A stretch of 64,000 nt of DNA from contig OZ020525.1 in the NCBI GenBank assembly GCA_963971425.1, positions 7,795,560-7,859,559 of the forward strand. Reading direction: 5' to 3'. Within the stretch, counting starts at the first letter, position 1, and each line of letters starts with the position of its first letter. The translations under genes were made by a program, and so were the position numbers. The DNA is from Bryoerythrophyllum caledonicum. Taxonomy: Eukaryota; Streptophyta; Bryopsida; Pottiales; Pottiaceae. Positions 6,086-39,409 of this stretch are shown piece after piece. A model generated the notes under the pieces. That model had not been told where the DNA came from and did not search any database. It worked only from the letters and a program-made list of their open reading frames with translations.

Positions 6086-6339
6086 TATATAGTATATTGT
6101 GATTTCATAGTCCTTAGATGCTGTAGGGTATGTAGCATCTTCTCTATGTTGTGAAGTGTTGTCTAATTTGTATTCGGTTATTTGTAAGAAGAGAATGCCT
6201 TTTTGGACTTCCCTGTAATTTTGAATGAAGAACAACTTTGTACAAATTGTTTTGATTTGGTCTCCCAATCCCGCACTTTGTATCTTCAGAAATAAAAATG
6301 GAATAACGAAATTAAAAAATATCCTAACTACCTATCCGC

Positions 6340-7765: not shown

Positions 7766-8252
7766 CTCCCTCTGAAAAGCCCCCCAACTTAATTGATTTT
7801 CACTCAAAGGTTAATACAACACAGCAAAGGATAAAAGTGGTGAGATACACGTAGGATGTCAATGCCACATAGGACGGCCACGTCGACGCCGAGGTAACAT
7901 ATGTACCATACATAGGGGTAAAGTTCATCTTTGACCGTAGGTTGGCTCTATTGTGTCGTGACAAGAGGGTCCGTCACGACATGTCACGTCATGACGGCAC
8001 GTCACTGTCACAATGTCACGATAGACAACCCTGACGCAGTTACAAATTCAAATAAGTTTTAATTCAGGTTAGTAATTTTCAGTGTCCGAATACCAAATAA
8101 GATGGAAACAAACTAAAGGGCATGTTTCAATATAAAATTGTTCAGGAATAATTAAAACCAATACAAGATCAATATCCAATTTTGGTAGACCCTAGTTGGA
8201 CTAGCAAATAAGATCTTACTGAATCAGAAATGAAAATTAATACACCAAACAA
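7766..8252. other. Spacer with a CGTGAC palindrome cluster
   Basis: No gene. At 7,956-8,030 many CGTGAC/GTCACG words occur in both orientations (GTCGTGAC, CCGTCACGACATGTCACG and more), giving a compact block able to form several hairpins. The rest is AT-rich. Confidence 0.45.
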
Positions 8253-9013
8253 CTACTCCGTATCATTTGAACTACCCTCACTTCCATTACCAACCTCTGC
8301 CTCTGCATCTATATAACGGATAACATCTTTGTGATACCTCCGCCACTGACGTGTTGGGGGAGGAGATTTCATAGTTGATTGTATCTTTGCAGTTCTTCGA
8401 GCCCAAATAGGGAGAGAAAAAGAAGAATCTGGAGATAAAGCTAGCGGCATAGCTCTGCAAAAGAAACAGAGAAACAATGAGCTTTAGGGTTCAAATTAAA
8501 ACCGTACACATATTTTGTTAACAACGATGAAAACAAAAGAATGTTTTGAACTTACTTACAAGAAGGAATACGACTACATTTTTGCTTCTTTTGTGGTGGT
8601 TTTCCTTGAGTACGACGCACATTCCTCCTGTTCTCCAAAGTCAATTTTGCGTTTGCCTTTGGAATTAGCGGTGCGAGCAAGGCTTGGAAAATCTCCGAGT
8701 CTTCTTCAAAGGCCAATATGTGACGGCCCAATGATTGACACACCCGAATAGTTGGTCCTAAAAAATACATAGCGTTAGAAAAGATAAAATTTAGGTGAGG
8801 TATATGAAAAAGTTAAGTATACAATAATATTAAACAAATGCTTACCCGTAGAGGCATTCCAATCTAAAACAATATCCCCAACTTTTGTGAGGGATTCAAG
8901 AACTCTCTTCATGAAATCAACCCCTTTCTCTCGAGCCCCCCGCCATGGTGACTCGCCATTCTTGAGCTGTGAAGCAACATTCACCGGATTGAACAAGATG
9001 TCGAGCTCTCGAA
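8253..9013 (-). pseudogene. ParB-methyltransferase gene, 3' exons (motif I half)
   Basis: Reading on the minus strand: an exon 9,013 to about 8,843, an exon 8,757 to about 8,551, and a last exon from about 8,459 to the TAA at 8,253. The joins keep the phase (TCTACGG|GTAAGC to TTTTTAG|GACC; TGTAA|GTAAGT to TTTTGCAG|AG). The product contains PWRGAREKGVDFMKRVLESL and then GDIVLDWNASTGPTIRVCQS LGRH and LAFEEDSEIF, spaced like the SAM-binding motif I region (D-x-F-x-G-x-G with a later acidic residue) of amino DNA methyltransferases. The Gly-rich loop is degraded (WNASTG). The tail is basic and then acidic. The TIR of the 23-kb transposon cuts the first of these exons; the earlier exons lie at 32.0 kb and beyond. 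Confidence 0.7.
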
Positions 9014-9035
9014 GGGTGAACGCACACTACGGTTG
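9014..9035 (+). repeat. Left TIR of the 23-kb element
   Basis: 22 bp beginning GGGTGAACGC, directly after the TSD CGAA. It matches the right TIR at 21 of 22 positions and runs on into the first TTGTAC motif. Confidence 0.85.
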
Positions 9036-9837
9036 TACGAATTTGTAGTCACGGCACAATTTCAGAGCCAGGTACAAGTTTGGACTCAATTTTAGGCTAG
9101 ATTTTTTTATATTTTGGAGAAAATGTTTAGTAGGCATAGTTCTACGTCTTGCATACATTGAAGAATAGAAATCAAAATAGTCATTGCATAAAATTAAACC
9201 CTTAAAATGAGTACAAACATAAAACGTTGGTACTGTCACGGTTTCAGGTTTCACATGTTTGTACTCATTATGATGGTTTTTAGTTATCATTTTTACATTT
9301 TAAATAGCTATATATGATCCCCTATTCTTTGGCTATCACGCCTTGCTATTTGTATAGATAAAATGATAGCCAATAAATAATAAATGTAACAAATGTGGCT
9401 TTTTTTGGGGGGATCCAAAACATGAGTTTAAAGTCTTTTTTTTCCATTTTTTTTTAAAATTGGCGTTTAGGGACTATATTTCTAAGGCGGCCATCAAACG
9501 AATTTTGAAAATAAAAAAATCTTCCTCTTCATTTTCTGTATCGGAGATGTAGGTCTCCATATTGCCTTAGTTTTTCTAGAATTCTCATATATTCCTCTCT
9601 ATAACGCTTTGTACTCAGTTTGTACAGTGCGTACTTGTTGTACTGTATGGACCAATCAGGGGAGTCCCTTTTGTCTTCCAATTTTGGATTTATGTGACAT
9701 CTCCACGTTGTCAGCTGTTGCCTTTTCAGCAGGAATCTCTCTTGAATTACCAAAATTTGAAAGGCGGCAAAATTCTTTTGTTGCTTGCAAGTTATCCACA
9801 CACAATGACGATGTCATCCTTCTCTGAGTACCTTCTC

Positions 9838-10485
9838 GAAATTTTGAAGCAACCTTCTTGGAGTTGCTCCACTTTGGAGCTTGAATTGGGCGTGTCACAA
9901 CAACCTTTGCAAGTGAGTTGGATTCAGGGTTTTGTTGTATTCTCTTTGAACAGTTCTTTATATGTGTCCATGTATATTTACTTGACAAAGCACATGATTC
10001 TGTTTCTAACTTATAGAGGTTTAGGTTTAGGTAGCTAGAGTCTTTTAAAACCCTTTGCTAGTTGTACATGATGTACCAAAGTCTAGTACAGAACGTAGTA
10101 TTCAAGACAAACTGTACTATTTGCAAAGTCCCTGATAAATTTGCGACATGCAGAATTGCCCATCTTTTCTAATTTTGAAGCAAACTTCGTGCATTTGGAG
10201 CTTTAATTTGGAGTGTCAATACAACCTTCGCAGGTGAGTTGGATTTAGGGTATATTGTATGTTTCTTTTATGTGGTTTTTGGATGTTTTTTGTGTATGTT
10301 TACTTGACCAAGCATATTGTTTTATTTCAAACTTATTGAAATTTAGGGTTTAGGTAGATAGAGTTTAATAAACCTAGATTGCTAATTGTACTCGACAAAA
10401 TAAAGTCTAGTACAAAAAGTACTATCCAATACAAAGTGTACTATCTGCGACGTGCTAAAGTACCCATCATCCCTTATTATCCATA
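9838..10485 (+). repeat. Tandem duplication of about 330 bp holding two candidate 5' exons
   Basis: The block from about 9,838 to 10,165 is repeated, diverged, at about 10,168-10,485. Both contain TTTTGAAGCAA...TTTGGAGCTT, then a splice donor (GCAA|GTGAGTTGGATT at 9,913 and GCAG|GTGAGTTGGATT at 10,234), then a TTTAGG phrase and clustered GTAC words. An acceptor (TATTGCAG) ends at 10,507, nine bases before the ATG of the next gene. This fits duplicated alternative first (5' UTR) exons. Confidence 0.55.
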
Positions 10486-10515
10486 ATTTTTTGTCATTGT
10501 ATTGCAGCCTCAACC

Positions 10516-13159
10516 ATGGATTTTGCGTATGGGTCCGAATTTTAAACAGACGACTGGTTGATTCAAAGCAGGACCTTCTCCAGAGAAGATGACCCTGCAA
10601 GGACTTTCTCTAGAGAAGATGATCCTTCCAGTTTCTTCTCTAGAGAAGATGAGCCTGTAAGTGACTATGACTACGATGACGATCTCCCTGGATCTCCGCT
10701 TGCTAGATCACACGAAGAAGGCCTTGCTAATCACAAGGTGAAGAAGAGTGCTTTGGAAAAGGAAGTTGAGAAGTTGACGTCTCTAAAGACCCATCTTCCT
10801 CCATGCGCCGTCACCGAAGAAGATTTTGAGACAAAATACGGGCTCCCCAACAAAGGAAAAAATCCACACAAGTTGCGACCTCCAGTTGACATCTAGGACA
10901 AAGAGGTAACTGATGTTTTTGGGCCACCTAAGGGAAGGAAGGAGAGAGCTGGTTATAGTTACGGAGATTGTAAGGACCAAAAAGTCTTAACCCGCATTAA
11001 TGAGGTTTTTCCCTTGGTTTATTTGAGAGATCTGCCTAAGTCCAAGGTTATAGCTAAACAATTTGCTAGGGGGATTGTCATGGAGGTGAAAAAGAAGAAA
11101 CTTGTGAGTTGGGCGGAGTTTGCTGCGGCCTCTAACAAAAACCAAAGAAGCAAATGGTTAAAGAAGGTGAAGATATCTTTGAGGGTTCTAGGACAACTCT
11201 CAGGCAAAACGGAGGATGAACTCTTTCTGCATGAAGGGATTGATGAGTTGTTTCATGATCCTACTGTTAGGGCTTTTGTAGTTCCAAAAGTTCTGAACGT
11301 AGTGAAGGAAGAGGAGGTTCCTGTCCAATAGTGTAGCCGAGAAATTGATAAGAATTTACAAGACCTGTTGAAGTTGATCAAGTTCGTGGGATTGCAACTT
11401 CACGTTGTGACGATGGACTACATCTCTATCAACAAAAAGAAAGCTGATTTGTTGAATACTGTGTCCCATGAAGAAGGGGTCCTCCGCCGAACTGAGGAAA
11501 AAATTGTCAGGATGCAAAAGATTCATTGTGTACGCAATGTACATGGTGTACATGATGTACAAATTGGAGCAGATGAACAAAACCTATCTAAGAAGGAAGA
11601 GGCATACCAAGAGATGCTCAATGATGCCAGGATGGATTACGAAGGTGCTGTGTTAGAGCTGAAGGGATGTAATGTACGATACGAAGAGCTTCTAGCTAGA
11701 CAAAATTGTTTGAGGAGGCAATTTGATGCTTTGTTGCTCCAACTTACTCATACGAAGAGAGGAGAAGATGGTATTGCAATGAGACCTACTCCCCATTGCT
11801 CCGTATTTGATTTGAAGGCAACATCAAAGTCTAACTCAATATTGATGCAGCCTTGTGCGCTTTGCTTCAACCATTTCCCTTTAAACGACATTGTAGTTAG
11901 TACTTGTGGGCATTTATATCATCCCTGGTGCGTAGCTTTTTGGTTTAGGATGGCTAGCACATGTGCAGATGTAAGTTGTGGCACATCAGTGCATCCGTCT
12001 TGGTTTCGTAGTTTCGGATTTGGACAACTGCCTACACCTCTTCAACAACTTGCAGAAACTTTAGATTTGGAGAAGGAACAACACAGTCTCCTAGCCAGCT
12101 TGACATTGAGTATATTGAACTGACATCCAGACATCGGTATGTTCTTTATCCTACTGCTCTTTACTTGTTTGAGATAGTTGAATGTTTACACATGTTTTCT
12201 TTACACGATTTATATAAAGAGTACAAATTGTACTAATATGGTATTTAACGTATGTTCCGTGTACATTATTTTTACAAAAGAATTAAAATGAGTCTACTGT
12301 GATGTGTATATTGTATATATTTATATGCAATTGTCTGTTTTTGAGGCATAGAGAACTAATTGTCTTGTCTTACGTTAGTGCAGATCCTAAAAAGATTTAT
12401 CAAGATCAAATGGCCCAATCCACAGTATGCACATGGACTCAAAGCGCAAATGAAACATCTATTATGGACTATGTTGGTTTTGAGATTAGTTGTAGTGGGA
12501 GCCGTGGAACACAGAGCCTAGGAAATAATAGCACTGTTGGGAGTCAGGAACCCAAGGTTCAAGTTTCAAGGCACCCATTGCGAACACAATCACATTTGGG
12601 TCTTCCATCTATAGACGAAGTAGACTCCCCTGACAAAATAAAAGAGGATCTTTGCGAAAGGACAAAAGTGGATGTTGGCAACAAAACAGAGGTGGATGTT
12701 GGCAACAAAACAGACGTGGATGTTGGCATGTTCAAGACAAATGCAGGTGTTGGCAATGATGGGATACCAACTACTGTCATAGAGGCTACTGAGGTTGACC
12801 CTGAGGAACCATCCATGAATCGTACTGTAGAAATGGAGCTTGAAGAACGTGTACAGAAGTTAAGAGAAGAAGCTGTGGAGTTTGAAAGACTTCGGAAGTT
12901 GAGGCAAGAAGCTGCGGTATTAGAGCGCCTCAAAAAATTGAGAGAAGAAACTGTTGAGTTGGAATTCAAAACTGAGGCATCAAAACAAATAGAGTTGTCC
13001 AAGGCAGTGATGAAGGTGCCACCCCCACCTCTTCTACCTCTGAATGATGCTAAATATCCACCAAAACGAAAGACTAGAAGTGAGATTGCCGCTGAAGCTA
13101 AGGAGGCAGAGGAAGCTAAGAAGAAAAACAAAAGATCCAAGAAGAATCGGCGTGGATAG
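10516..13159 (+). pseudogene. Coiled-coil/RING-like cargo gene, copy A (lacks SET exons)
   Basis: The frame starts at ATG 10,516 and stays in one phase to 12,136, then splices (ATCG|GTATGT to GTGCAG|ATCC at 12,384) into a last exon ending at 13,159. In order: three repeats of FSREDDP, an acidic run, a conserved block (FETKYGLPNKGKNPHKL; WAEFAAASNKNQRSKW), a coiled coil, and a RING-like zinc finger with CALC, STCGHLYHPWC and CADVSC about 11,860-11,970 followed by WFRSFGFG. The last exon has VDVGNKT repeats, a long EL/R-rich coiled coil and a basic end KKKNKRSKKNRRG. Four in-frame stops interrupt it (10,543 TAA, 10,894 TAG, 11,329 TAG, 12,121 TGA) but there is no frameshift. Copy B is a clear paralogue with the same phase-1 intron after the RING-like part; the SET exons are absent here. 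Confidence 0.68.
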
Positions 13160-14490
13160 GATACTTTTTGTGGTGCATGGAGTTTAGATGGTACGAAGTG
13201 GAATACTTTGTATTGTTTGTCACATCTGTTGTGTAGATGGGGAGAGAGTGTTTCATAATTCATGAACTTTCTATTTACTTAACTGCCGAGGCTTGCATAT
13301 ATTGATTTTATCACCTATATTGTGCCGCATGTATTGCCAGAAACATCCCATGTATTGCCGGAAACGTCCCATGTATTGCCAAGAAAAATTTGTCTTTGGT
13401 ACAATTTGTACTATAGGTATAGTTTGTATCGCTCAAAGTCAACTTGAAAGATGTCGTGGCAGTCTTTGCGGCGCTGGTGCCGAGACCCGGGCTTTATGCT
13501 ACCCTTTTGAACCGGTTGTCGAATACTATTTTATTTTCATTGGGCAATATTATTTCATTTTTTTATTGTGAGCATATTTATATATTTATTATATAATTAA
13601 AACAACATCCACCTCTGTTTTATATATTTTACCATTTTCTCTACTCCACTTTGTAATAAATAATATTTTCCTATGATTTTTTCTTTGAACTAATAAGACG
13701 ACATTGATTTAAACACAAATTTGAGTTTATATATATAAAAATTAGATTAAACTAAAATACTTTACAATAACTATAATTACGTGGAGATGTATATATATAT
13801 ATATATATATATGAATGAATAATTAAACACTTTAAATTTTTGTATTTACAAAAAACAAATATTATACTATACTATTACATGCATATATATTCTAGAAATA
13901 TGAAAAAAATGAATCATCAAGTATACAATTGTCGAAGACCATAGATTAGCCTAACCACATTAACACCAATCCAACATTTAATTATTTTAATAAAAGATTA
14001 CCATTCGTCCTCCCATCAATCCGATATAGATTCTCCATACTTAGAAGATTTAAATCTTTTATTTTCAAACTTTATTTTCGAAACAAGTTGATTTAAGTAA
14101 CAATTATAGACACAATCATAGTAATGACATAGTAAATCCTTGAACGTCACAAGGGAACCGTATACACATGACCGTATTTCACTTTATATAATGCAAAATT
14201 TTTATTATAACTTAACAAGATTTACACCTTATTATTGAAATTTCTTAAACTAGCATCTTTTATTAGAGGTAAATTCCAACTTTGAATTTTATGAGGTTTG
14301 AATATTGTATTGTGTATGTAAGAAATTGTGCTTGTCGCATTATAGTGGTAGCTCTTGATGTTTAGCAATTAAGGCAAAGTTGCCATGTACCCCTTTTGAA
14401 ACAAAGAGTCCGCTGAAAAAGAAATCGGGCACTAAAAACACACACGTATATATATATATTTTTATTTTATTTTATTTTTTTTATTTTAAT
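13160..14490. other. AT-rich spacer with one short dispersed repeat
   Basis: No gene. GTAC words occur close after the copy A gene (13,400-13,430). A GC-rich block at about 13,441-13,510 (GTCGTGGCAG, GGCGCTGGTGCC) has a diverged relative on the other strand at about 27,985-28,050. The rest is AT-rich with an (AT)n run near 13,790. Confidence 0.45.
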
Positions 14491-15300
14491 TTTTTATGTG
14501 TGTGTCTATACATATATGTATATATATAAATAAACATATATGTATATACAAATATATATACACATATATGAATATATGTATTTATACATATATGTCTATA
14601 AGTATTTATACATATATGTCTATAAGTGTTTATACATATATGTCTATAAGTATTTATACATATATGTCTATATGTATTTATACATATATGTCTATAAGTA
14701 TTTATACATATATGTCTATATGTATTTGTACATATATGTCTATAAGTATTTATACATATATGTCTATAAGTATTTATACATATATGTCTATAAGTATTTA
14801 TACATATATGTCTATATGTATTTATACATATATGTCTATAAGTATTTATACATATATGTCTATATGTATTTATACATATATGTCTATATGTATTTATACA
14901 TATATGTCTATATGTATTTATACATATATGTCTATATGTATTTATACATATATGTCTATATGTATTTATACATATATGTCTATATGTATTTATACATATA
15001 TGTCTATATGTATTTATACATATAAATCTATCAGCATTTATACATATATGCCTCTATGTATTTATACATATATGCCTCTATGTATTTATACATATATGCC
15101 TCCATGTATTTATACATATATGCCTCGATGTATTTATACATGTATGCCTCTATGTATTTATACATGTATGCCTATATGTATTTATACATATATGTCTATC
15201 TGTAATTATACATATTTGTCTTTGTATATCTATACATATATGTCTTTGTGTATTTATACATATATCTCTATGTGAATTTATACATTTATGAATATATGTA
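14490..15300 (+). repeat. 24-bp minisatellite, TATTTATACATATATGTCTA type
   Basis: More than 30 head-to-tail copies of a 24-bp unit whose last letters vary (TATAAG, TATATG, CCTCTATG). Because 24 is divisible by three, it leaves long ORFs of IYTYMSIS-type repeats that I do not regard as genes. Confidence 0.95.
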
Positions 15301-15625
15301 TTTATACATATATATATGTATATATATATCATACTTGTATGTATATATATATACATATAAGTATGATATATGTATATACATATATATACATATATATATA
15401 CATACATATACATATATATATACATACATATACATATATATATACATACATATACATATATATATACATATATGTATATACATATATATATATGTATATG
15501 TATATACATATATGTATGTTATATATCATACTTGTATGCATACATGCATATATATATACTCTATAACAATTATATATACATGTGATATGTGTATATGTAT
15601 ATACATATTTATATCATATATATAT
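15300..15625. repeat. (TA/CA)n low-complexity run
   Basis: TATATACATA-type simple sequence that continues the minisatellite, partly palindromic (ATACTTGTATG...CATACTTGTATG). Confidence 0.85.
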
Positions 15626-16319
15626 CTACTTTCCACTCCTAGTACTTTTAATAAGGCATTTGCACTATTCTACATATCACTTTTAGTGTAGTGTAGACTA
15701 AAAGCGAACCTGTATACTATTGGTGAACTAGGCAATTAGTGTCGTGACAAAAAATTACACTATATGCTAATTGCTATAGTATTTGCATATTCTCGTTAAG
15801 ATTGTATGGAAAAAAAAACACTCCTGCGCATTTAGCGTGTCAAGAGTAGTTTTAGAATATTGTGAGTAGATTTTGAGTATGAAAAGCGACTGAGATTTCT
15901 AGTACATTTAGGAATATCAACCATTTGGAAGAATTTTTTTGGAAAAATGAAGGTGTGGATATGGAATGAAGGTGAAATTGGAAAATTAGATTAAAAAATC
16001 AAATGGAGAAGAAAATATTGAGAAAAAATAGAACGTAGATATGGAAAAAAAATGGAATTGCATTATAAGGTCCAAACACTTGAAAAAGTAAACATTTGAA
16101 GAAGCCAACATTAGAAGAAAAGAAGACTTGAAAAAAATAAAAATTAGAAAGATATACATTACAAGAAGAATCAAATGAAAAGAAAATACTTGTAAAATGA
16201 ACATTTGAAGATAAAAAACATATGAAAGTTTAATGTATAGAAAAATGAAAATTTGAAGAAGTATATCTTTGAAGAATGAAACTTACGAAGATGTATATAT
16301 TTGAAAAATAAACGGTTGA

Positions 16320-16945
16320 CTTGGAAAGTAAAGGTAAAGAAAGGAAGGCTTTAGAAAAGTAAGGGTTCCAAAAAGTAAGGGTTAAAAAAAGAAGGATTTG
16401 AGAAAGTAAGGATTTCAAAAAGTAAGGATTTCAAAAAGTAAGGGTTCAAAAGTAAGGGATCTAATAAGAAACGGTTTAAAAGAGAGGGATTGTAAAATTA
16501 TGGGATAATAAAAAGTAAGGGTACCAAAAAGTAAGGGGTTGAAAAAGTAAGGATTTGGAAAGTAAGAGATTGCAAATCTAAAGGTTCAAGAAACTATTGA
16601 AAAGTGATGCTTTAGAAAAGTAAAGGTTCCAAAAAATAAGGGTTAAGAAAAGGAAGGATTTGAGGAAGTAAGGTTCCAAAAAGTAAGGGTTCCAAAAAGT
16701 AAGGGTTCAAAAGTAAGGGATCCAATAAGAAACGGTTTAAAAGTGAGGGATTGAAAATTTATGGGATAATAAAAAGTAAGGGTTCCAAAAAGTAAGGGGT
16801 TGAAAAAGTAAGGTTTTGAAAAGTAAGAGATTGCAAATGTAAAGGTTCAAGAAACTATTGATTTGAAAAGAAAGGCTTTGAAAAAGTAAGGGTCCAAAAA
16901 AAGAAGGGTTTTTAAAAAGTAGGGGTTTGAAAAAAACTAGAAGTC
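16320..16945 (+). repeat. AAAAAGTAAGG purine-rich tandem repeat with a duplicated block of about 280 bp
   Basis: The word AAAAGTAAGGGTT recurs every 15-20 bp. On top of that, the segment from about 16,335 to 16,605 is repeated at about 16,610-16,880 with the same order of variants (GAAGGATTTGAG, AATAAGAAACGGTTTAAAAG, ATGGGATAATAAAAAGTAAG). No gene is seen from 15,626 to 17,330. Confidence 0.75.
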
Positions 16946-17330
16946 AACAAGACTTCATTATGGCATGGCAACAATTAGGTGGTTATTGGGGGTATCATTA
17001 ATGGTGTTGGCGGCAACACTAATCGTCAACTTATTCACGAATAGAGTGCAAAGGTTAGTACACTATTGTGTCACTACACCAAAAGTGATATTTAGTGTAC
17101 TAGCAAACTCTATTATTAGTATAAATAATTTACAAACTATAGATGAATTATTTTTTAAATGATGTAATTTAAAAATTGCAATAAAATGGTTTGACTAATG
17201 CGTTGCTTAGCAAGCGCCATCCGCTATCATAATACTAAAATCAGAAGCAAAGTCATAAAGTCAGAAAATTGATGATATCTCTAATTCAATATAAAGGCAT
17301 GCCTAAAAAATGTAATCAAGTATTTAAACC

Positions 17331-17844
17331 TTAACCCCTAAAGGACCAAGTGTAAATAATGGGCATTTAAAAAGTTTGGTCAGGTTCCTATGGTGTCATT
17401 TTCCAACATTCCTTTTTCAAAGCTTTCCTACAGAAAGGCATTACAGATATTTTAGTGGGAAAACTTTTTTTTGCTAAATTGGACATTTGAAGAAAAAGTT
17501 ATACTAGGGATTAGAATTTCAAATGGGAAGAGCGGGCACCTTGGGCACCTCCAAAAACTTTTGCTAGGACACTATATTGTTCAAATGTGAGATTTTGAGT
17601 ACTCTATTGAACGCATAGTACAAAATGAACCATTTGCTTAACTTCAAAAACTATAATCTTTCAATCCGTGTGGTCAAAATTTATGAAAATTTGAGAGTAT
17701 ATTACTCAATAAGTCTTAATTGCTCAGATCCTACGGTCTGAACTAAAAATCAAAGTTTTTGTTTCCTTCTTTGTTCATTGCACTAGAAACCAACAATTTT
17801 GAAGTGTTTTTGGTGTAAAATTGTCACGATACTTTAGGGGTTAA
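17331..17844 (+). mobile_element. MITE copy 1, TTAA-flanked (506 bp)
   Basis: CCCCTAAAG at 17,335-17,343 and its reverse complement at 17,832-17,840, each directly flanked by TTAA. There is no ORF. Interior phrases (TCAATCCGTG, AATTTATGAAAATTT) recur in two other copies at 46.8 and 57.3 kb. TTAA target sites and a CCC start are typical of piggyBac-type elements; that assignment is inference. It is nested in the 23-kb element. Confidence 0.7.
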
Positions 17845-19236
17845 ATATAGGTGTACAAATTATTGATTGATTGAACACTTAAACTGACCATTCATTTCAT
17901 CAGTCCATCATATGATTCAGTGAATAAGTACTCCATGACTAATTGATGTATGACCTATTTAATTAAATATTGGACATGCTTGTTTTTACCAATGATATGC
18001 CTAGTTCTTGAATGAGCCATTTAATTCGCTTAACTTTTCTTCCTTACATGACATTTCTTCTTCATTACATTGATATAAGACGTCATTTCCTAAATAAATT
18101 GATTACTACCCATGGCACCGGTTCACAAAATAAAGGATGTCACATTACACAAATGGATGACCGGTGGTACCCCGTTAACATTCAAAAGTGACCGGTGATA
18201 GGCTGTGGAAGGGAGATAACCGGTGATGGGAGGTCATGTGACCGGTGATAGGCGGTTGTGGAGACTTCTTCAAAGGGCGGGACACTGTTTCAGCCGGTTT
18301 CCATTGTCTCGCACCTTGTGGATGATGAGAAGGTGGCGCCAACCACAGTTTGAGAGGTGTAGGAGGAGCGCATGCTTGTGCGGAAGGGGAGATCTGGAGT
18401 GCTAGATCAAGGAGAATTTGGAGGCAACAAGTGTGGTAAGAATTGCAAACAAGATTGTCTCGCCCAACATTTTGTTTTTTGTTAGGTAGAAGTGTGGTGC
18501 TTTCTAGCATAGTGTGTTAGAAACGTGAGTTGTTTTGAGGTGGAGCGCCGTGTGAGTGAGCACTAGTTTTGGTGCTTTCTAAAGTAGCCCTTCATTTTCA
18601 ACTAGTTGCTTGTGCATCTAAGTCTGAGAGGGTATTGTTTGTTTGTAGTGCACATGATAGAGAACTGTTGACCCATTTGAAGCAAGTACCCGAACCTAGT
18701 GAATCTGATGCTTACTAAATTGTAATGTGAGTGGGATTTTTGGATTTAGGTTTGAAAATTTCTTGTCGATGTTGTGTCGTTCTCTTCTGTGCTCCTAACT
18801 TGCACCATCTTAGAAGTATGTGAAGCTGTAATTTGTTGATTACGATCATTTTTGGGTTTGGATGATCGTTTTATTGTATTCGTAGTGTGTACTGTTTGTA
18901 CTAGTTTGTACAATATGTACCATTTGTAGTGATGTAACTATTTAGTAGTTATTTTGAAATGCTCAACCTTGGCAGACATTGATATTTTGTGGTTCTTGAT
19001 GTTGTCTGGTATACAATGTTGATCTTGTGTTGTAGTTGCACAAGTCAAAAATCAGGTGGTGGGAAATGGGCTGAAGAGAAGACGTTGCCAGAGTTTTTGG
19101 CTTGATCCAACCACAAACAGGTTTTTTGGCTTGATCCAACCTTCTCCAATTTTGTACTTTGTGTATTGTTTTATATTTTTCTACCATTTTCTACACTAAT
19201 GTCTTGTAAGGGCGGTTTGTCATTTCCAAGGTTGAA
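17845..19236. other. 5' region of the RING-like/SET cargo gene
   Basis: No ORF of note. ACCGGTGAT repeats occur at 18,165-18,255. A GTAC cluster at 18,886-18,930 and a doubled phrase ending GGCTTGATCCAACC (19,098-19,111 and 19,129-19,142) lie ahead of the ATG at 19,237. Probably promoter and untranslated exons, but I cannot place a start site. Confidence 0.4.
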
Positions 19237-22200: not shown

Positions 22201-24061
22201 GTACATTACCACAAGGTTTATACATTATGTATTGGATTAAACCATTATTTTATATAGGCCTATGCTTGTACAATATATGCTTGTAGAGCCTGAGCATGTG
22301 GACCTAGGTAGCAATGTAGACCCCATTTGCCTGAGTGTATTGAGTTAATGAAGTATTACTCATATGATATTGGGTTTAGGTTGCCTTTGGAGCCAGCAAT
22401 GCCGGTGGAGTCAGTGGCTCCGGTGGAGTCGGTGGCGCTTGTGGAGATAGTGGAAGTTGTGGAGCAGGTGCAGAATCAAGGCAATTCAGACACTCCGGCT
22501 GGATCAAGTCACCAGAGGAGATCAAAAAGACCAAGGCCAGAGAAAAACATAGAAGCCACCGCAAGTGAAGAAGACCAAGAGAAGAAACATGGGAAGAAAA
22601 AGACAAAGAAGAAGACCCATCCACGACCCAAAGTGAGAACTTAATTTTTTTTAATTCACTTTGTGGGATTACAATCGGCAGCTAGTTCAAGTTTGCAATG
22701 GCTTTCTATTTCCTTGGAAAAGTCAATGCCACCATTATATATCTTTGAATTGTTAAAGAGACTTTTTTACTAATATAGATTTTTTCTATGATCTACAAAG
22801 CTAACATGTTTATGAGGTTGTATTTCTAATTCATTTTTGTCCATAGGCACAACTATGGTTTGATACAATGGACTTATCCAAAGGACTCGAAGTTGTTCCA
22901 GTGTCCGTGTGCCTGGATAGCTTGAAGGTCCATGAATTACAAGAATTTACTTACATTAACCGCTCCAGGATGTCTGATTTGCCATCCCACCTATCTAAAG
23001 TCACAGTGGATTCCCCACAGTTTTGCCGTGATTGCCAAAGCAATTGTCTTGGACAAGGCTGCAATTGTGGAGTACGCACAATCAAACAATCACCTTATAC
23101 TACCCAAGGTCGACTCCGAAGTATCCTTCACCAAACTGTAAGTGTGAAATATATTTTCCGTCTTGTACCTTCTTGTACAATTTGTATTGCGCTTACCACT
23201 ATGTATAATGTTGGTACATCCTATACGATTTTTTCAATTTCATCATGGTTTTGGCAGGAATTGATGGAGGAGGTTTTGTTTTGCGATGGAGAGTGGTGCA
23301 TGGAGCAAGACGTTGGTGGTTGTCCTGGTCACATGAACAGAATTTTTTTGCAGGAATGCAATGACGCATGCAAGTGTTTGCTCTCTTGTGGAAATCGGGT
23401 GGTCCAAAGTGGAGGGCGTATCCCCATACAAGTGTATTGGTCCGGAGTGAAGGGATGGGGACTTAGATCTAAGAAATTTATCAATAAAGGGACTTTTGTG
23501 TTTGAGTATGTGGGGGAGATTGTGATTGATGCAGAGTTGCAGCATCGTAGGGCCTTGAGGAGACTTGGGAAGTCAGAGGCGTACACTATGGCGCTCAATG
23601 CCACTTGGAAACCGGAGGAGGACTATTCGAACAATGTTGGATTTTGCATTGACGCCACTAATTTCTCCAATGTTACAAGGTTTTTGAATCATAGGTATTT
23701 CCTTCCAACATCAAAATGTATGAAGACAATTTTACTTTGAGATTTATTTGGAAAATTGTGATTTGTATTAATCAAAATTGTGTGTGCATGTATTTTTTAG
23801 AGATGTGAAGATGCAAACCTTATAGATGTTCCAGTGACGATTGACAACAGTGACATACGATTGTTCCACGTAGCCTTTTTTGCTCGAGTCAAAATTCCGG
23901 CTTGGGAGGAATTGACCTGGGATTATGGCTGTTGCTTTGATAGATCACAAGTTAACGAGGTAGATGCAATATTTCCTTTCCATTGTCAATGTGGTAGCAC
24001 TCGCTGCAGGGACAGTAAAATTGACGATTCAGCCATTCAACTCACACTTGACATTTTTTGA
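19237..24061 (+). CDS. RING-like/coiled-coil protein fused to a SUVR-type SET histone methyltransferase (cargo gene B)
   Basis: ATG at 19,237. Exons I can support: 19,237-20,216; 20,518-21,296; 22,001 to about 22,125; 22,380-22,632; 22,847-23,137; 23,258-23,694; 23,803-24,061. Most joins keep phase; those around 22,126-22,380 are uncertain. Order of parts: a basic start, a long Glu/Asp run (19,380-19,650), the block shared with copy A (TTDFFTKHYGF, WAAYGAATNKTQREAHKRN), a coiled coil, a RING-like finger (CVLC, SSCKHLYHPWC, CCARGC, then TASFGW), a KKK-rich linker, then pre-SET Cys clusters, SET and post-SET. One in-frame TAG at 20,699 lies between the exon start and the RING-like part. The predicted role is writing H3K9 methylation at sites chosen by the N-terminal parts; the RING-like part may bind ubiquitin machinery. 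That coupling is inference. The fusion rests on the 22,632|22,847 splice, which is phase 0 on both sides. Confidence 0.68.
22847..24061 (+). other. Pre-SET, SET and post-SET exons (SUVR1/2/4-like)
   Basis: Pre-SET: CRDCQSNCLGQGCNC, then the YTTQGRL region, then ECNDACKCLLSCGNRVVQ after a phase-0 intron (23,138-23,257). SET: GWGLRSKKFINKGTFVFEYV GEI, then VGFCIDATNFSNVTRFLNHR; an intron (23,695-23,802) splits the motif, which resumes as CEDANLID. The catalytic end is EELTWDYG, where plant SUVR1/2/4 also have Trp and most SUV39-type enzymes have Tyr. Post-SET: CQCGSTRCR. All landmark residues of the SAM and lysine pockets that I can check by eye are present, so the domain may be active. In a conventional annotation these three exons might appear as a separate gene with ATG 22,868. 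Confidence 0.82.
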
Positions 24062-27000
24062 TCTTGAATGAAATGATTCTACATGTTCTATTTTCTACAT
24101 GTAGAATCATTTCAACCGGAACTCTAAAACATTGAACAACTTCCATAATTATATCACATTCTTATTATGTTATTGTTATATTGTTTTAATTAAAAATCAA
24201 GGTATTATATGTATGACATTTGTATCCAGTATAATGCTTGTACCAAATTATAAAAATTACATAGAAGGTAGGATATTTCTAAACTAATGAATATACATAA
24301 ACCGGGATACTCAGAAACCATCAATGTTTCATGACCTTTAGGATGACCACTAAATGCAATCCTCAAAATGAAATAATTAGCAAATAAACATGTGCAAAGA
24401 AAATACTTAACTGTTACAGTCTAAACCATCAAAACGTCATGGCTGCTGTGGTGACCGCCAACTGCAAAGAAAATAAACTAATCACCAAAAAAAATGTGTA
24501 AAAGATGTACTCACAAGATTTGGTGATGATTATATCTAATGCTTTAAACAATATAGAATTTAGTACCTCTAAGGATTTGAGTTTCTTTAGATGTACTAAC
24601 CTAGCAACAATTAATCAAAACACTCCCAATAGTTTGAATATGGCTGTAGACATTCTCTTTAGTCACTAGCAGAATCCAGAAAATGCTCATCCTAAACCCA
24701 GTCCAATGCAAGAGAAACTATAATATCATAGAAGAAACAACAAGATTTGTGTACAATCATCTCAATTAATACAAACTAGCTAGTACAACTAGTACAACTA
24801 GTACAACTAAAACAATAGTACTATCTGGTACAAATAAAAAATGCTAAAAATAAAAGTCCAAGAGTAAATATAATACGCAATTGTTTCCAACATGTACAAC
24901 CATAGTACACTAAGTACAAATTGGTACAAATGGTACAAATAATGAAGTTGATGCCTAGTACAAACATATCATCATTCCACAAAGACAAGTATAACCTTTA
25001 CAATTAGTACAAACAAAACAAAAAAAAATTGACTAGAAGTACAAAATCTAAAACACCAAAATTTGCATACTTTGTACTTGGTTTTCATAGTAGATTTGTA
25101 ACAAACTAGTACATACAATACAAATAGTATACTTGACTTGGAGTACAAACATATGATCACCCCACATTGTACCTTACATTTGTTTTTACACAGTACAAAC
25201 TCTTCTAACAAACACTCCAAACAACATTCATACTTTCATGAGTACAAATCAATATTCCCAACTATGAATCACATAAATTTGGGTACACAATGTTGGTACA
25301 AACAAACTTATACGAAGTAGAGCAACTTACCACAAAATTATTTTCTAGTTCATACAATCTCCAAGTGATAGAATATTTAGTTGTACTCCTGCCATAGAAC
25401 ACGTAATAAATATCCTAGACATAATAGTAATCTGTGTACACACTAGAAAAAAATAGTGGTAATGGATAAAATTATTTGTAACAACTGACCACCTTTCCCA
25501 AAAAAACTGTGATAGTATTTCTCTCCAAATCAACCTTGTTGCTAAGTAAAACATTCCAATACTAAATGGCTTATAAATCTTTTTTCAAAACTAATAAGTT
25601 GCTTGAAGTTCTTCACTAAACTAAATGAAAGGAAAACGGCAAGAAACCCAAAAAGAAAGGAAGAATGCAGATAGAACTTACCCTTTTCTGCAGTGTGTAT
25701 TGAAATGAACTTAAAAGGCACTACTGTTGCTCCCATCTTGAAATCTGTATGTAAAATCCATTGTAAGATAGAGCACATACAAGCTACATATTGATTTTAC
25801 AAATTTGAAGTTCAAAATGGTACATATTGTACAGTACTCGTACCAACCATAAGTCCTTCGAAAGACAAACCTTCACGTCCTCTGATTAGCTGATTCACAT
25901 GTGGTGGTAGGAGTTTGGTGAAGGATTTCTACATCTTCTAACACAACGTGCCCGAACAATGCCTCACTGCTCCTAATGGCTTGACTAGGAGAGCTGTCTA
26001 TAGTATTACAAAGTCCTAGATAGAAGGCACTATTGCCACACTGAGATTCAGGGGTTTCAGAAACATACCATTTAGTTGTTGTATTCGCAGATACAGGACG
26101 AGCGATGCACAATGGGAAGTAAGAAGTGATGAGTTTTTATACAAGTCTAGAGTTTTCGAATGGAAGGTAAGACATTGCTACAGATACAGATTGAGCGGTG
26201 CACAATAGGAAGTAGGAAGTGATGAGTTTCTAAACAAATCTAGAGTTTTGAAACGGAAGGTAAGACATTGCGAAAGAACGCAAACTGGAACAAAAACACG
26301 TGCATTGCAAGAAAAAGAAGAAAAAGAATCTCCTCACACTACTTAGAGGTATCTCAACAATGACGAAGGTCTGAAAGTAGTGACTCACAAACAAGGCATC
26401 TAGGTTCTTGCGAAAAGCTGATCCAGCAGGGATTGTGATACCCCCTTATATCCCTTTGATACACTCATGATACCCCACAAAACCCCCTTATATCCCTTTG
26501 ATACACTCATGATTCCCCACAAAACCCCCTTATATCCCGTATACTACCATGATACCCTATAATATACCTGTCATAGCCGTGACATATACATGTACTACGT
26601 GGTGACATAGTGCGCGTCACATTCCGTAACACGATACCCCGGGTTGCAAAGGTATATAGTATATAAAGTCAAGGTATTAAGGTCAAAGTATTAAAAAATT
26701 TAATAACATTTAAGAGCATGCTATATATAAGTAAAAGAATAAAATCTTCCAAACATATAGAAACTTGTTAGTGAAAGTATGAAAGTAAAAGAATTAAATC
26801 ATACGAAAGCATGGAAACTTGTTAGTAAAAGTACCAAAGTAAAAGAATCAAATTTTCCAAATACATGGATAAGTTTTGCCTAACAAAAAGTAAGAGTTTA
26901 TTAATATCACATATCAATACAATGGAAACATAGATGGAACAACATTGCAAAGTGAAGAATCAAAGTACAAAGGGCTAAGACCTTTTTTATGTCCTTATAA

Positions 27001-28379
27001 ATGTATTTTGAAACCTCTACGTAATACTAATTATGTGAATATTTTAAAAAATAGACGTGCGCACATGAATATAAAAGGAAAAAGAACATTTTCTTATGAA
27101 TATTACAAGGTGAAGTACAGAAAAGGGTAAAAAGTGAGCTTGGAAAAAACACTAATATGGGATAAATATTTTTCTATGTTTCAATTGTTAAATATATATG
27201 TATAGACCTTTACATACATTACAAATAATGTAATGAATTTTAGTGTATTCCTTATACTCATACTTTAATTAAGTAAAGATGATTGCTTAATAAATAAAAT
27301 AGAAATTGACCTTAGATTTAATTCTTTTAATATGATGTTTGAACTATTAGGTTTCTACGCTTTGAGAAGAATTAATTACTTTTCTCTGATAATTTTACTT
27401 TAGCACTTTCTCTTGTGTCATGTTAAGTTATGTTACAATTATAGATACAATTACAAGGACAGGCATGGTTGAGTGAAGTTACCATACCTCGTTGGAAACA
27501 ATACGATTCCGATGGTAAGTAAAAAATTAAATAAAAAGCTTCATAAATATTACACGTTGTAAAGTATTTTAGTGTATACAATGTGTTTGGAATTTCAAAA
27601 AGGAAATGAGGATGGAACAATAGTGTACAAAGTCAAGAAACAAAGTTCAAAGTGCTAAAACATGCTTTATATACTACATAATATATTTTCGAAGCTCTAA
27701 ATAATTTTAATTATTTTAATGTATTTTTTTAATAGATGAACTTATATAAATATAAAAGAAAAAAATAACAACATATTTATAATATTACAAAGTGAAGTAG
27801 AGAAAAGGGTATAAAGAATAATATGGGGTATGACATTTTTATGTACTGTTAAATATCTATGCTCCCAAAAAAAAAACTGCAAAATGCAATAGACAAAAAT
27901 ATCAAAAGGCCTTATTGGGGAAAATCACCAAAAACCACACGATTTGAGTAGCGTGGTATGACAGGACATGTACGGGTCGAAGACCAGGTCAGATGGGTAG
28001 TTGAAAGCCCGGCACAAGCGCCACAAGGGGCTGCCACGACAACTTTCAAGTCCACCTTGATCCAGGTAATGAAGCCGACTTGACCAAGTCACCCAAAGGC
28101 TCTCTTGGTCATTTGGAAACACTAGATATTGTCCTCTCCTATATACGACCCCATTTCCAAACGGACAGTCGATATGGGATAATGGAACAAGTCCAAACCT
28201 ACCATGTTTTGAATGGTACAAACCGTATCACTTGTACAAGATGTACGATCAATATAATAGTGGTACAAACTATATAGTGAAATTCATGCTATACGATACA
28301 ACCAATACCTGAAGCAATACATGCTAAGTTAATCAATTACTAAAGAAAATGTTCATGAACCATGAAACATTGTGTCATC
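24062..28379. other. 4.3-kb spacer of the 23-kb element, GTAC-rich
   Basis: No gene I can defend. From about 24,750 to 25,320 GTACAA/TTGTAC words are dense (for example four tandem CTAGTACAA units near 24,775-24,815). At 26,100-26,275 a unit of about 95 bp occurs twice (GCACAATGGGAAGTAAGAAG type). At 26,440-26,575 a unit of about 55 bp (CCCCCTTATATCCCTTTGAT) occurs about 2.5 times. At 26,730-26,870 a unit of about 70 bp with GAAACTTGTTAGT is repeated. A minus-strand ORF at 25,873-26,112 with a good donor (AAATG|GTATGT) could be one exon of a lost gene. Confidence 0.4.
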
Positions 28380-31300
28380 CTAATTCTCATCCTCTCTTAA
28401 TCTGTCTAATCCAGCCCAAATGGTAGCAATGCTGTCTTGACTCAAGCTATAAGTAACTTCTCCACCTTTGCGTCTACCCACTTTTGGAATCATAGCAAAT
28501 TTACAATGTACAATAAGATGGGCATCAATATGCGCAGGTTGAGAGTTGCCGAGATACACATAGCCATTGTTCCACTTTTGGTAGTAAGTACCTCGTACAA
28601 CAAAATCTCCAACTTCATAATTTGGGCTCCATGGGCATGTGAATGCCGAAGTGACTTGGTGCTTTGGCAAGGAGCATTGGAGAATATAAAATTCAACCCC
28701 TTCGGCGTTTCCTTCCATAGCAGGGACAACGAAGTTGTCACCGGGGTGAATGAGGTCAGCAATTTCTTCACCCTCTAGAGCCTCCTCTTCAAAGGTATCT
28801 TCTGCTTGATCCACCCAATCAAGCATAACCTCTTGTACTTCACTAAGGTTATATGGTTTCAATTTCACCAAGTCCCAACCCTCTACATGAGATTTGTTAA
28901 CACAGTTAGTGCAATCAACGTCAAAGCAGTAACCACAAAAACATGATAATTTTCGAACAAACAACAAGGTTGGATCAGCAACAGAAAACGAGTACAGTGA
29001 ATGAAGAGCCTGAGAGCCTTTTACTGTCTCGCAGTCAAAACTGCGTTCCCTCATGCAATCTTTGGGAATTTCCCAAAAATGCCTACGCACTTCTTTGATC
29101 CCTGTCTTTTCAAAATTTGTATCCACTTGTCCTCTCATTGTCTCATTGAGAAAACAAACTGCGTCGTGCGCATTTTGCATCCTTCTCCATGTGTCATGTA
29201 GTTGAGATTGCCGTAAAGCACGCTTGACAACAACACCTACACCATCCCACTCCCCTTTTCCATGGCCAGTGCCAAAAAAATTCCAATTCATGGTGCAACC
29301 ATTGGTGAGGCCAGGATACCTTGCAACAAAGTATAGGGCTCGAGCACCTTTGAATTGGCTTGCACATCCGTCGGACCATACAACATGGTGTTTGGGACGA
29401 ATCCCTGCTAAATACAAAAACAGATTAATGACCACAACATATATAATAGTTGTTTAATTCAGTACATATCGTACAATTTGTGTGTTTTAAAAGAATTAGG
29501 TACAATCTCGTTTATATAATACATTTCAGTTCATATTGTATAGTTTAGTACATACTGTTTATTCATTCGTACATGTTACACTGTATACTCCATGGAAAAG
29601 AAATAAAGAACATAGTTAACATACCTTGCGACTGTAGCCATTGCCAATGCTGCATCAAACAATGCTGAACAAAGAGAGAATCATGCTTCTCATCATCTCA
29701 TATATAAAAATGAGAGTCCTTTAAAGTTTCTCCATGTCCATTTATTATATAAGTAATATGCACTAGAATAGTAATTTGAGTTGAACACCAATACATGCTT
29801 TGTATTTGGTTTTGAATCTCAAAAATGTAGTTCTCGGCATAATCAATATGTGATAAAATCATGCCTTCACCCATGCATTGCATTGACCGCTTGCAATGGT
29901 CATCCTGCCACCTTGCAATGAAGTTATGCCTGACAAATTTGGATAATTTGAACTTCAAGTATTCAAAAAAAACTATGGTAGAAGTCTCCTTGTATGCTTC
30001 TACAATCCTCTTCCGTGGCTTTCCCTCCTGAGTGAGTCCAATAACTTCATTCTCAAAACACTTCCATGTAACAAGTGTTGATGTGGAAGATTCTTCAGGA
30101 CAAACTGCCAACTTCAAAATACCGCAATCTATGCATGTACCCATAACACATGATAGTGCATGCCACTCCGCATTCTCCGGTTTTGAACAAACAATTTCTT
30201 GCCAAAGCGATGTTGTTCCACCATATGTCTTCAAGTGGGCTTGACAATTTGCCCCTTCTATCAGAGTATGACAAACTTCACAGAGACACTTACAATTATT
30301 AAGAAAGTGGAGTCCTTTTCTTGTATCTCGAATCCTATTGAACCCTTCTCTAAGCATGTCAATCTCAACATGGTAGCGACAGCAACATACATTCCTTTCA
30401 TTACAGGCTCTAACAAAATATGGCTTCAATTTTTCAAATGTTCTCATTTTGATTACAACATCAGGATGCGCTTCCACAAATCTGTTATAGAATGCCGTCT
30501 GCATACAAGTGTAGAAACTATAAGAAGATATCAAACTATGAAAAATATTGATACAAATGGCATAAAACTGATACATAATGTACTGAAAGGTAAAAAAAAA
30601 TACATCATACACTAAACTGTACATAATATAGTCGAAAGAAGATATAATGCAGCGAACTTTTAATTATAAGATTTGGCACAATATGAAAACCATACAGAAT
30701 GTACTAAAGGATGGAAAATATACATACCTGGGTTTCAAGCAAGTAGTGGGTGCAGTGTTTTTCGTATGTCTTCCGGCTTATCCACTTTTGAACGATCTCC
30801 TTCTTGTTGGGACTCACGCGAGTTTCTTCAATCCACCATTTTACAACGATGTCTCTAATTTCTTCAGACATACCTGGCCTCTTCTTTCGACTTGCCAACA
30901 CAAAAGGCCTGTTGCCCAAACGCATACTCTTGCATTGTGATGCTACCCTTAAGTTATATGGATTCACCTTTAAAATCCGAGACAAAGCTTTTATGTTTTT
31001 TACATCTGAAGATACAGCTGCATCTAGAAGAACAGCCTTCCTAGCAAGCTTGTCTACTGATTGAACACCCTTAACGGCCTCCAACTCTTTTTGATAGTTC
31101 TCCAAAAATTGAAATTGAACCATTGCATCTTGTTTACAAGGGTAATAGTTTGGAAGGAATGACCTGATGCGCTCATCCTCCAAAAAACACTCCATGATCT
31201 TCAGTCTTGAAGATGCGGTAGGACAAGCTTGCATCTTAGTCGTGAAAAAATTCACGATCTCGGATACCACATGACATACTTCGCGTGAAGACAACTCACT

Positions 31301-31519
31301 ACCTTCTTCTCCATTTTCAGAGATAGTGGCAAGCAATCTTGCTTCTTCTTCTCTCTCCTTCTGCAGTTGCCGACGTTTCTGTTGTCTATCTACTTCCCCA
31401 TCTCTCAGACTATCTCTAGTTGCAACGTACTCCTCAGCCCTTGCACGAGGACCCTTCTTTTTTGATCCCGCACGTTTATCTACAACATGATTATTTCCCA
31501 TTGCCCTTAACGTTGACAA
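28380..31519 (-). CDS. Sola-like DDE transposase
   Basis: Three exons on the minus strand: 31,519-30,728, 30,508 to about 29,631, and 29,406-28,380. Donors and acceptors are good and in phase (ACCCAG|GTATGT to TGCAG|ACGGC; CGCAAG|GTATGT to TTAGCAG|GGATT). About 900 residues: a basic N-terminus with KR-rich helices, a helical region with KKRPGMSEEIRDIVVKWW (possible DNA-binding part), a Cys/His cluster (NCKCLCEVCHTL), then an RNase-H-like core. Candidate acidic triad: Asp of HIDYAENY (codon 29,842-29,844), Asp of WSDGCASQFKG (29,370-29,372) and Glu of GHGKGEWDGVG (29,250-29,252). A second Cys cluster (CFCGYCFDVDCTNC) follows. One in-frame TGA (29,698-29,700) sits just before a DDEKHDSLFVQHC stretch. 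It is the only transposase in the 23-kb element and lies near its right end, facing inward. Confidence 0.72.
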
Positions 31520-32022
31520 CCATATACTCTAAAAAGCAATGAAATACTAGTCTACCGCTGTCAACACTTCACCTCAAACCGCCATCAATCTCATCTACAT
31601 TGCCATCATCTCTGTAAAATTCATCCCCTAAATCCACTTACAATCAGTAACATGTCAAGCAGAGTGCCCTAAACGTCAAGCACATTGCCTTCATCTCTAA
31701 ACAAGTCAACGTCTCCACAACCCTAGACCCAAAATCAAGGTGGTTGAAGCACTAAATCTACGAAGAGCATACATTCTGTATCAACATTGATCAACTGTAC
31801 AAAGAATGTACAAACAGTAAGAAGAGAGTACATTTTTGGCAATAATCATGTGAACAAAAAAGAGTTGTCAGCTGTCAGAAGATACGACAAACACACCATG
31901 TGCACGATGTGCACGCTTTTCCAAATATACACAGATTCGCCGGCATATTTGGGATCCAAAATTTCATACTAGTTGTACTCGTTGTACTGTTTGTACTGGA
32001 GAACCATAAACGGCCAGGGGGT
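31520..32022. other. Subterminal region before the right TIR
   Basis: Upstream flank of the transposase gene, with repeated CAAGTCAACG/GTCAAGCACATTGCC phrases and two GTAC clusters (31,797-31,832 and 31,974-32,000). No gene. Confidence 0.4.
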
Positions 32023-32044
32023 CGACCGTAGTGTGCGTTCACCC
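32023..32044 (-). repeat. Right TIR of the 23-kb element
   Basis: Reverse complement of the left TIR, directly followed by CGAA (32,045-32,048). A cluster of TTGTAC/GTAC words lies just inside it at 31,974-32,000. Confidence 0.85.
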
Positions 32045-32928
32045 CGAAGTGGAGAGCGAACTAAGAATGTCGAGACGATGGGAGCGTCACGAACAAACAG
32101 CCGAACACAGAAACGCGTTCCCTGAGAAATAACAATAAATGATATTATGGATTAGAAAGACGAAGGGGATGTTCAAGACTACAGATCAGAACTATGAAGA
32201 CAATTGGAATAGAGCTTACTGTTGCAGAAGAATCTCGAGGCAGAGCTAGAGGAAGCTCGTTCAAAGCCCACCAGTCGATGAGGAGTTTGAAGTCGTATGT
32301 GGAAGCACAATCATCAATCTCAAGTTGTAACTCCCTATCATTTGGATGAAGTAGAAGCAACGCAACGTTGTCATGAAGATAGTTGTCAACGAACTCAAAA
32401 ATTGTATCAATATAACTCTCCGGCCTCAAATTCCATGAAGGGATGACATCAATGGATTGAGAAATCCCAGGAACTGGCAAACTCTCAGGAATGTCAGCCA
32501 CTATAAGATCCAATCCGGTGTGTTTGCAATTTTTGTTTGAAACTAATCACGATCTACCTAAACCAACCTACAAGCAAAAAAAACCAATGATTGTACAACA
32601 ACTGTGTAAATGTGATTATGCAGAAATTAAAATAAAAAATGATAACATTGTCTAACCTTCGAAATAAATTGATGTAGTTCCTTCCAAAGTTGCGGTGGAC
32701 CTCCAATCTCTGAAAGAGACTGCATGGTAGAAAACAGTGATATGTTTTTGATGAAACATTCTGATGAGACAATTGGCACTGGCGCAACGGATGATTCAGA
32801 AAATAGAAATTGGTGCTGCTTGTGCTGTTGCACTTCCATCCTTATAACTTCAACATGGCTTGATCCTGCGGCTTGAGAGGATGCCATTATTGGAGGAGAG
32901 TTCCTTGCCTGGACCTCGTTCCTAGGCA
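32045..32928 (-). pseudogene. ParB-methyltransferase gene, middle exons (motif IV half)
   Basis: Three minus-strand exon pieces: 32,928-32,657 (resumes right after the 7.4-kb insertion), about 32,520-32,220, and 32,121-32,045 (cut by the 23-kb insertion). The first is a Ser/Gln-rich linker (ASSQAAGSSHVEV). The second contains LDLIVADIPESLPVPG, which has the position and hydrophobic context of motif IV (DPPY) of amino DNA methyltransferases but reads DIPE, so the catalytic tetrad is lost. It then follows the expected pattern of helix and strand (NVALLLLHPNDRELQLEI). The third reads GTRFCVRLFVRDAPIVSTFL VRSPL and joins RELDILFNPV at 9,013 in frame once the transposon is left out. Motif IV before motif I is the beta-class order. 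Confidence 0.68.
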
Positions 32929-39287: not shown

Positions 39288-39409
39288 GTTCCACTAAACC
39301 CTAGGCAGCACAAAAAATGAAAACTGCAGAGTGACCCTAAACCCTGCAGAGAATCCAGCGCATCAAACCCTAAACCAAGCAACAAGGAAAACAAGAGAAA
39401 CAAGAAACA

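Follow-up and report, generated by a model that had tools for sequence, protein, structure and literature searches.

The described elements closest in kind to the one considered here are DNA transposons that carry proteins acting on chromatin. HarbingerS and MuDR transposons of Phytophthora contain SET histone methyltransferase genes (Repbase Reports 2014, as cited in PMC12730594), so that DNA transposons with a SET gene are, from oomycetes, a kind of element already known, and fungal transposons bearing TET/JBP enzymes are treated in the citing paper (PMC12730594). In Arabidopsis, VANC21 binds short motifs gathered in the non-coding parts of VANDAL21, and the target of VANC6 is an AC-type motif, AGTTGTAC (PMC5735166). 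Here a 23-kb element with a SET gene, a transposase gene and two RING/coiled-coil genes is described from the moss Bryoerythrophyllum caledonicum. The window, meaning the whole stretch of 64,000 nucleotides that was analysed, is contig OZ020525.1 (C14), positions 7795560-7859559, in an assembly of 437 Mb and 894 contigs; feature positions below are those of the window.

A mobile unit in many copies

A sequence-only reading of the window had defined one mobile unit by nearly identical 22-bp terminal inverted repeats (TIRs), a 4-bp CGAA target-site duplication (TSD) and an exon restored when the element is removed, and all of these features are present. The unit spans 9014-32044. Its two TIRs differ at a single base, and no further TIR match with up to three mismatches occurs elsewhere in the window or in 100 shuffles. 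When the element is excised in silico, one frame of the interrupted gene stays open across the junction. The interrupted exon matches the Pfam DNA methylase model PF01555 (E 3.8e-8, residues 52-106); this match is confined to one side of the junction and hence is no test of the join. The interrupted gene (window ~8560-9009 and 32049-32120, minus strand), with its N6_N4 DNA methylase-like domain, is unusual for a plant and is perhaps itself mobile.

Other copies of more than 20 kb with the same TIR, 4-bp TSDs and SET genes had been predicted, and they were found. Searched with 391 bp of the 5' end, the genome yields at least 40 matches of 92-100% identity, one of them in the window (best 40 of 189 candidates); the matches begin at query positions 1-8, the TIR itself starting at position 5, and two additional matches are short and weak. 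At least 40 places are likewise matched by the 3' end (83-100% identity, best 40 of 89 candidates) and by the SET exon 23258-23694 (81-100%, best 40 of 72). The copies on contigs C12 and C9 can be aligned end to end at 96% identity, each with a separate TSD. Six copies were fetched from their 5' ends, and in five both ends were seen, with equal 4-bp TSDs (TTCA, AGGA, AGGA, CGCG and CACG) and lengths of 23.06 (C12), 23.03 (C9), 29.9, 23.15 and 26.5 kb; the 3' end of the sixth, C3, was not found within 30 kb, and this copy is left out of the TSD count. Eight of nine additional end pairs have perfect TSDs (CAAT, CCCT, CACG, TCGA, TGAT, GATT, CCGT and ATTG); in the remaining pair (C8) the 3' TIR is damaged and the flanks read, by eye, AGTT/AGCT. 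Perfect duplications therefore flank 14 of the 15 end-paired units, window included, and comprise 12 different tetramers.

By comparison of coordinates with the SET-exon search, a SET match is enclosed in 14 of these 15 units, the exception being a 12-kb unit on C7 without a SET match among the matches listed. Copies C1 and C7b have been lengthened by insertions, and for the 37-kb (C7) and 46-kb (C2) units the ends alone were read. The lack of a second copy and of an empty site in related genomes, or transposase copies elsewhere with different TIRs that never enclose the SET gene, had been named as outcomes that would count against a single mobile unit; sister copies are many, and one end-paired unit in 15 is without a listed SET match. 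The SET and transposase genes belong to one mobile element and are not brought together by an accident of assembly.

Transposase and superfamily

Sola elements are cut-and-paste transposons with a DDE-type transposase, defined generally by a 4-bp TSD. Within the unit lie reading frames corresponding to the expected DDE transposase, RING and pre-SET/SET products, and the duplications have the length characteristic of Sola. The transposase has a relative in Ceratodon purpureus, and a relative is predicted to adopt an integrase/RNase H fold; an RNase H-like catalytic core, with the fold taken from a homologue, and the invariant acidic residues place the protein among the DDE/D transposases. A Pfam search of the transposase gave no model above its cut-off, a Foldseek structure search alone gave no match below E 0.001, and in viral contigs eight stretches fit a pattern, of which none encodes a relative. 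For Sola2, a 4-bp TSD and short TIRs have been stated (PMC3627910), and Sola1 is listed for Physcomitrella (PMC9033089). The AT-rich TSDs of the Sola2 type are not seen here (CGAA, CGCG, CCCT, CCGT and others), which speaks against Sola2 and not against Sola1. The TSD length and the fold fit a Sola-like assignment.

The SET gene and its inheritance

The plant SUVR-like pre-SET/SET/post-SET module claimed for the element was borne out: PF05033 and PF00856 match above their cut-offs, and a post-SET CxCxxxxC is visible in the translation, giving the SUVR domain order. The SET exons are open in the window copy. Judged from its sequence, the product looks as if it were a plant SUVR4-type enzyme, a putative histone H3 lysine 9 (H3K9) methyltransferase. 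It resembles plant SUVR4 proteins at 37-39% identity over 94-96% of the pre-SET/SET/post-SET region (top ten of 284 matches) but differs from them in being without the WIYLD domain. The RING frames, exons 22001-22125 together with the beginning of 22312-22632, and the SET protein were all searched with PF10440 without a match, while its positive control, plant SUVR4 P0028, scored E 1.2e-17. Compared with 13 angiosperm SUVR cores, the SUVR of the host itself shows 60-71% identity; element SET cores reach 40-57% against the same 13 and the host SUVR, and the split is therefore old or the element genes change fast.

A plant SUVR4 query gave at least 140 matches in the genome, exon by exon (89 scored of 534 candidates), so that transposon genes may inflate the number of SUVR genes counted in such genomes. 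Sorting by span and identity yielded the groups G1 (11 matches), G2 (the window's family) and G3 (19 matches by the last exon), with one or two host-like genes and some matches unassigned. Three places, one of G1 and two of G3, were read beyond SET, and at each of them a transposase of the same superfamily (~42-44% identical) lies on the opposite strand, at most ~1 kb downstream of SET. One G3 place has a piece of the RING gene upstream of SET (E 2e-6). Between the two G3 copies read, identity is 95% over 2.8 kb. In a tree of transposase ends, G1, G2 and G3 fall into one clade with P0002-P0006 (support 86/92), and a SET tree, in which branches are long and the 122 columns few, places G1 and G2 together (96/89). 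An intron in NHR^C is common to the host SUVR, G2 and G3 and lacking in the one G1 copy read, which indicates that SET was captured as genomic DNA. Since SET lies beside a transposase in three distant groups, this was not a one-off capture: the gene is a long-inherited part of the transposon lineage rather than a mere pickup. The sequence-only reading had called it cargo, a word that undersells the recurrent SET-transposase association.

Decay and constraint

The window copy is damaged, with stops in the transposase, gene A and gene B. Other copies read open at these codons and have damage of their own elsewhere (gene A codon 536 was compared with relatives only). In four of the eight copies checked for stops, in a comparison that does not show insertions, the SET exons can be read through to the final stop; in three further copies, checked for insertions, they have none.

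Selection was assessed between subfamilies I (11 copies) and II (3 copies), with omega measured against a neutral expectation from non-coding singletons. Fixed differences in the SET core number 19 synonymous and 19 nonsynonymous, giving an omega of 0.37 (P=0.0019); for pre-SET plus SET it is 0.68 (P=0.043). These values show that the SET core has been under constraint between subfamilies. Young copies show little or no constraint: singletons give 0.75 for SET (P=0.24), 0.71 for the transposase (P=0.089), 0.61 for gene A (P=0.014) and 1.28 for the RING part of gene B (P=0.87), as expected if most changes postdate insertion. Shared variants are few, 7-13 per gene, include no stops, and all give P>=0.098; a contrast of McDonald-Kreitman type did not reach significance (P=0.71 and 0.094).

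Beside one subfamily II SET copy (C7:6860871-6869870) is a rearranged or different derivative, in which the 9 kb downstream of SET contain, in inverse orientation, fragments of the 17.3-17.8 kb region of the element and neither transposase nor TIR.

RING genes and the question of a fusion

Genes A and B encode related RING/coiled-coil proteins. In the window copy the first exon of gene A has in-frame stops at codons 10, 127, 272 and 536, and gene B has one TAG, at codon 388. As three of the gene A stops are TAA or TAG, a variant code reading these as glutamine was considered; it was rejected because two other long frames in the window use CAA/CAG (11 and 48 codons) and contain neither TAA nor TAG ahead of a terminal TAG, and because other copies are open at the gene A stop codons. 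One RING-like gene had been taken to be joined to SET. Both sets of exons are present, and in the window copy the putative junctions are GT-AG and in phase. In the five further copies that were compared, GTAAGT is found at the donor and the frame used contains a TAA, which weakens the case for a joined protein. The SET gene possibly has its own ATG.

Table 1. Positions of the element's features in the window
Feature	Position	Strand	Remarks
Left target-site duplication CGAA	9010..9013	.	read from sequence
Left 22-bp TIR	9014..9035	+	homology of other copies begins there or a few bases off
82 GTACAA/TTGTAC sites	9036..32022	.	81 outside AT tract; 77/82 outside exons masked as coding
Gene A exon 1, coiled-coil/RING	10516..12136	+	homologues P0141-P0147; exon end predicted
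Gene A probable exon 2, coiled-coil and lysine-rich tail	12384..13159	+	splice predicted
ATATAC-type tandem tract	14481..15691	.	repeated matches also in copy C3
Gene B, RING/coiled-coil part	19237..22125	+	exons 19237-20216, 20518-21296, 22001 to ~22120-22125
Lysine-rich exon upstream of pre-SET	22312..22632	+	start uncertain: own ATG or splice from gene B
SUVR4-type pre-SET/SET/post-SET	22847..24061	+	exons 22847-23137, 23258-23694, 23803-24061 (stop included)
DDE-type transposase	28380..31501	-	exons 31501-30728, 30498-29625, 29404-28380; in-frame TGA at codon 525 in window copy
Right 22-bp TIR	32023..32044	-	inverted match to left TIR
Right target-site duplication CGAA	32045..32048	.	read from sequence

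Motif arrays and a proposed mechanism

GTACAA/TTGTAC sites are enriched fivefold in the element (81 versus 15.3 after shuffling), whereas their number in the window outside it is at chance level (18 versus 16.3). Within the element they are concentrated in non-coding DNA, with 77 sites in 13.7 kb (5.6/kb) against 5 in 8.1 kb of exons (0.6/kb); the coding mask used overruns one exon end by a few bases and omits exon 22001-22125. Density in three 3' flanks is 0.29-0.88/kb, eight diverged copies have 1-8 sites per 1.9 kb around SET, and G3 has 3 in 3.4 kb. This distribution suggests that the arrays are a putative protein address of the element itself; they could alternatively be a transposase-binding or promoter motif.

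The reading that we favour, at somewhat better than even chances, is of a giant cut-and-paste DNA transposon with a lineage-inherited chromatin-writing module that directs H3K9 methylation, guided by the motifs, to its own copies. The transposase would excise and insert the unit with a 4-bp stagger. Another element protein, most likely the RING/coiled-coil pair, would recognise TTGTAC motifs in the element's non-coding DNA and bring the SET enzyme to element copies, over which H3K9 would then be methylated. The likeliest use would be to give the element control of its own chromatin state; self-repression outside a transposition window and pre-emption of host silencing by DNA methylation are about equally probable as the purpose.

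A more ambitious version is decidedly tentative. It holds that there is a clade of giant plant transposons with a portable heterochromatin machine, made up of a RING (ubiquitin-ligase-like) protein and a SUVR4-type H3K9 methyltransferase lacking the ubiquitin-binding WIYLD, and addressed by family-specific motifs in the non-coding DNA of each. Fission yeast CLRC pairs the Cul4 ubiquitin ligase with the H3K9 methyltransferase Clr4 (PMC12407891), and if this version were true a transposon would bring both activities, as paired in that complex.

Alternative readings

An unlikely alternative is that SET steers insertion, by marking or being tethered to particular chromatin into which the transposase then inserts. 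SETMAR is a precedent for a sequence-specific transposon-linked SET protein (PMC6326780), and older copies are many on contig C1 (65 Mb, 15% of the genome; counted by eye), which holds 17 of the best 40 SET matches, 15 of the best 40 3'-end matches and 12 of the 15 SET matches with identity <=95%. The TSDs are diverse, however, the window copy lies inside an open reading frame, and 5' ends, which were ranked by likeness, are less piled up (10 of the best 40 on C1), so that slow removal from one chromosome fits equally well. A non-recombining (sex?) chromosome would explain the excess.

It is improbable that the enzyme is a weapon silencing rival transposons or host defence genes: made in trans it might act anywhere, but the concentration of the motif in the element's own DNA, with chance levels outside it in the window, points to self-address. 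Just as improbable is SET as a passenger, a single genomic-DNA capture without function for the element, such as the gene pieces that plant transposons often carry. The decay of the window copy and others, the near-neutral singletons of young copies and the intron shared with the host SUVR, a sign of capture at DNA level, speak for it. The identical SET-transposase arrangement in three distant groups speaks strongly against it, as do the low omega of the SET core between subfamilies and the SET exons that remain open in half of the copies checked. The joining of SET and transposase by two independent overlapping elements or by an assembly chimera has next to no probability: insertions into copies do happen, as in C1 and C7b, but 23-kb copies that align from end to end, each with its own TSD, exist on other contigs and rule it out where the window's family is concerned, and the gene order is the same in G1 and G3.

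Other features of the window

Outside the element, a 1,492-residue open frame (34815-39293, minus strand) has a C-terminal half that is transposase-like by eye and no Pfam match at E 0.01. Open frames at 6328-7775, 55439-56337 and 62596-63667 encode long arrays of short peptide repeats (QSA/PVRG-, RRGPEHEED- and EEQDQELE-type). Those at 49045-49746 (plus) and 53199-54293 (minus) encode related proteins that have in common, by eye, LGAR.G.KS.LS, LPP.FDGD.IF.LPP and GMDK, and are perhaps another repeated gene family; 52045-52581 contains a SWIM-like C.C..F piece. Neither this frame nor 53199-54293 has a Pfam match.

Comparison with known systems

A search of the open PMC literature found no report of a Sola element with a SET or other chromatin-writing enzyme, and within those bounds the earlier statement that none has been described holds, SET genes being known from other superfamilies (PMC12730594). 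As far as that literature was searched, what is new is a 23-kb plant element with a 4-bp TSD, the combination of SET with RING genes, the presence of several diverged groups within a single genome, and the motif arrays. The element resembles Sola in the length of its TSD (4 bp) and in its short TIRs, both given for Sola2, and Sola too is listed in a moss; the element differs in its 23 kb, its RING and SET genes and TSDs that are not AT-rich, in contrast to Sola2 as described.

Like the Phytophthora elements, it is a DNA transposon with its own SET gene, here inside a unit bounded by TIRs and TSDs; those elements, compared through the citing passage only, belong to other superfamilies and an oomycete host. 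The TET/JBP transposons likewise show a DNA- or chromatin-modifying enzyme on DNA transposons, in several lineages, although theirs is a dioxygenase acting on methylcytosine and not a histone methyltransferase. VANDAL elements offer the parallel of a transposon protein and short motifs dense in the transposon's non-coding DNA, and the VANC6 motif, too, contains TTGTAC. In the passages cited, DNA methylation is lost through VANC, which is nowhere there called a SET enzyme, and the motif-binding protein of the moss element is hypothetical.

The moss element carries what may be a natural histone writer, possibly sequence-addressed, and it makes testable the question of whether a selfish element benefits from controlling its own heterochromatin. 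Transposon-borne chromatin factors in the papers cited mostly undo silencing, as VANC and TET/JBP do; that a transposon lineage has retained a histone methyltransferase of the silencing type through long divergence suggests an advantage, for some parasites, in writing the mark.

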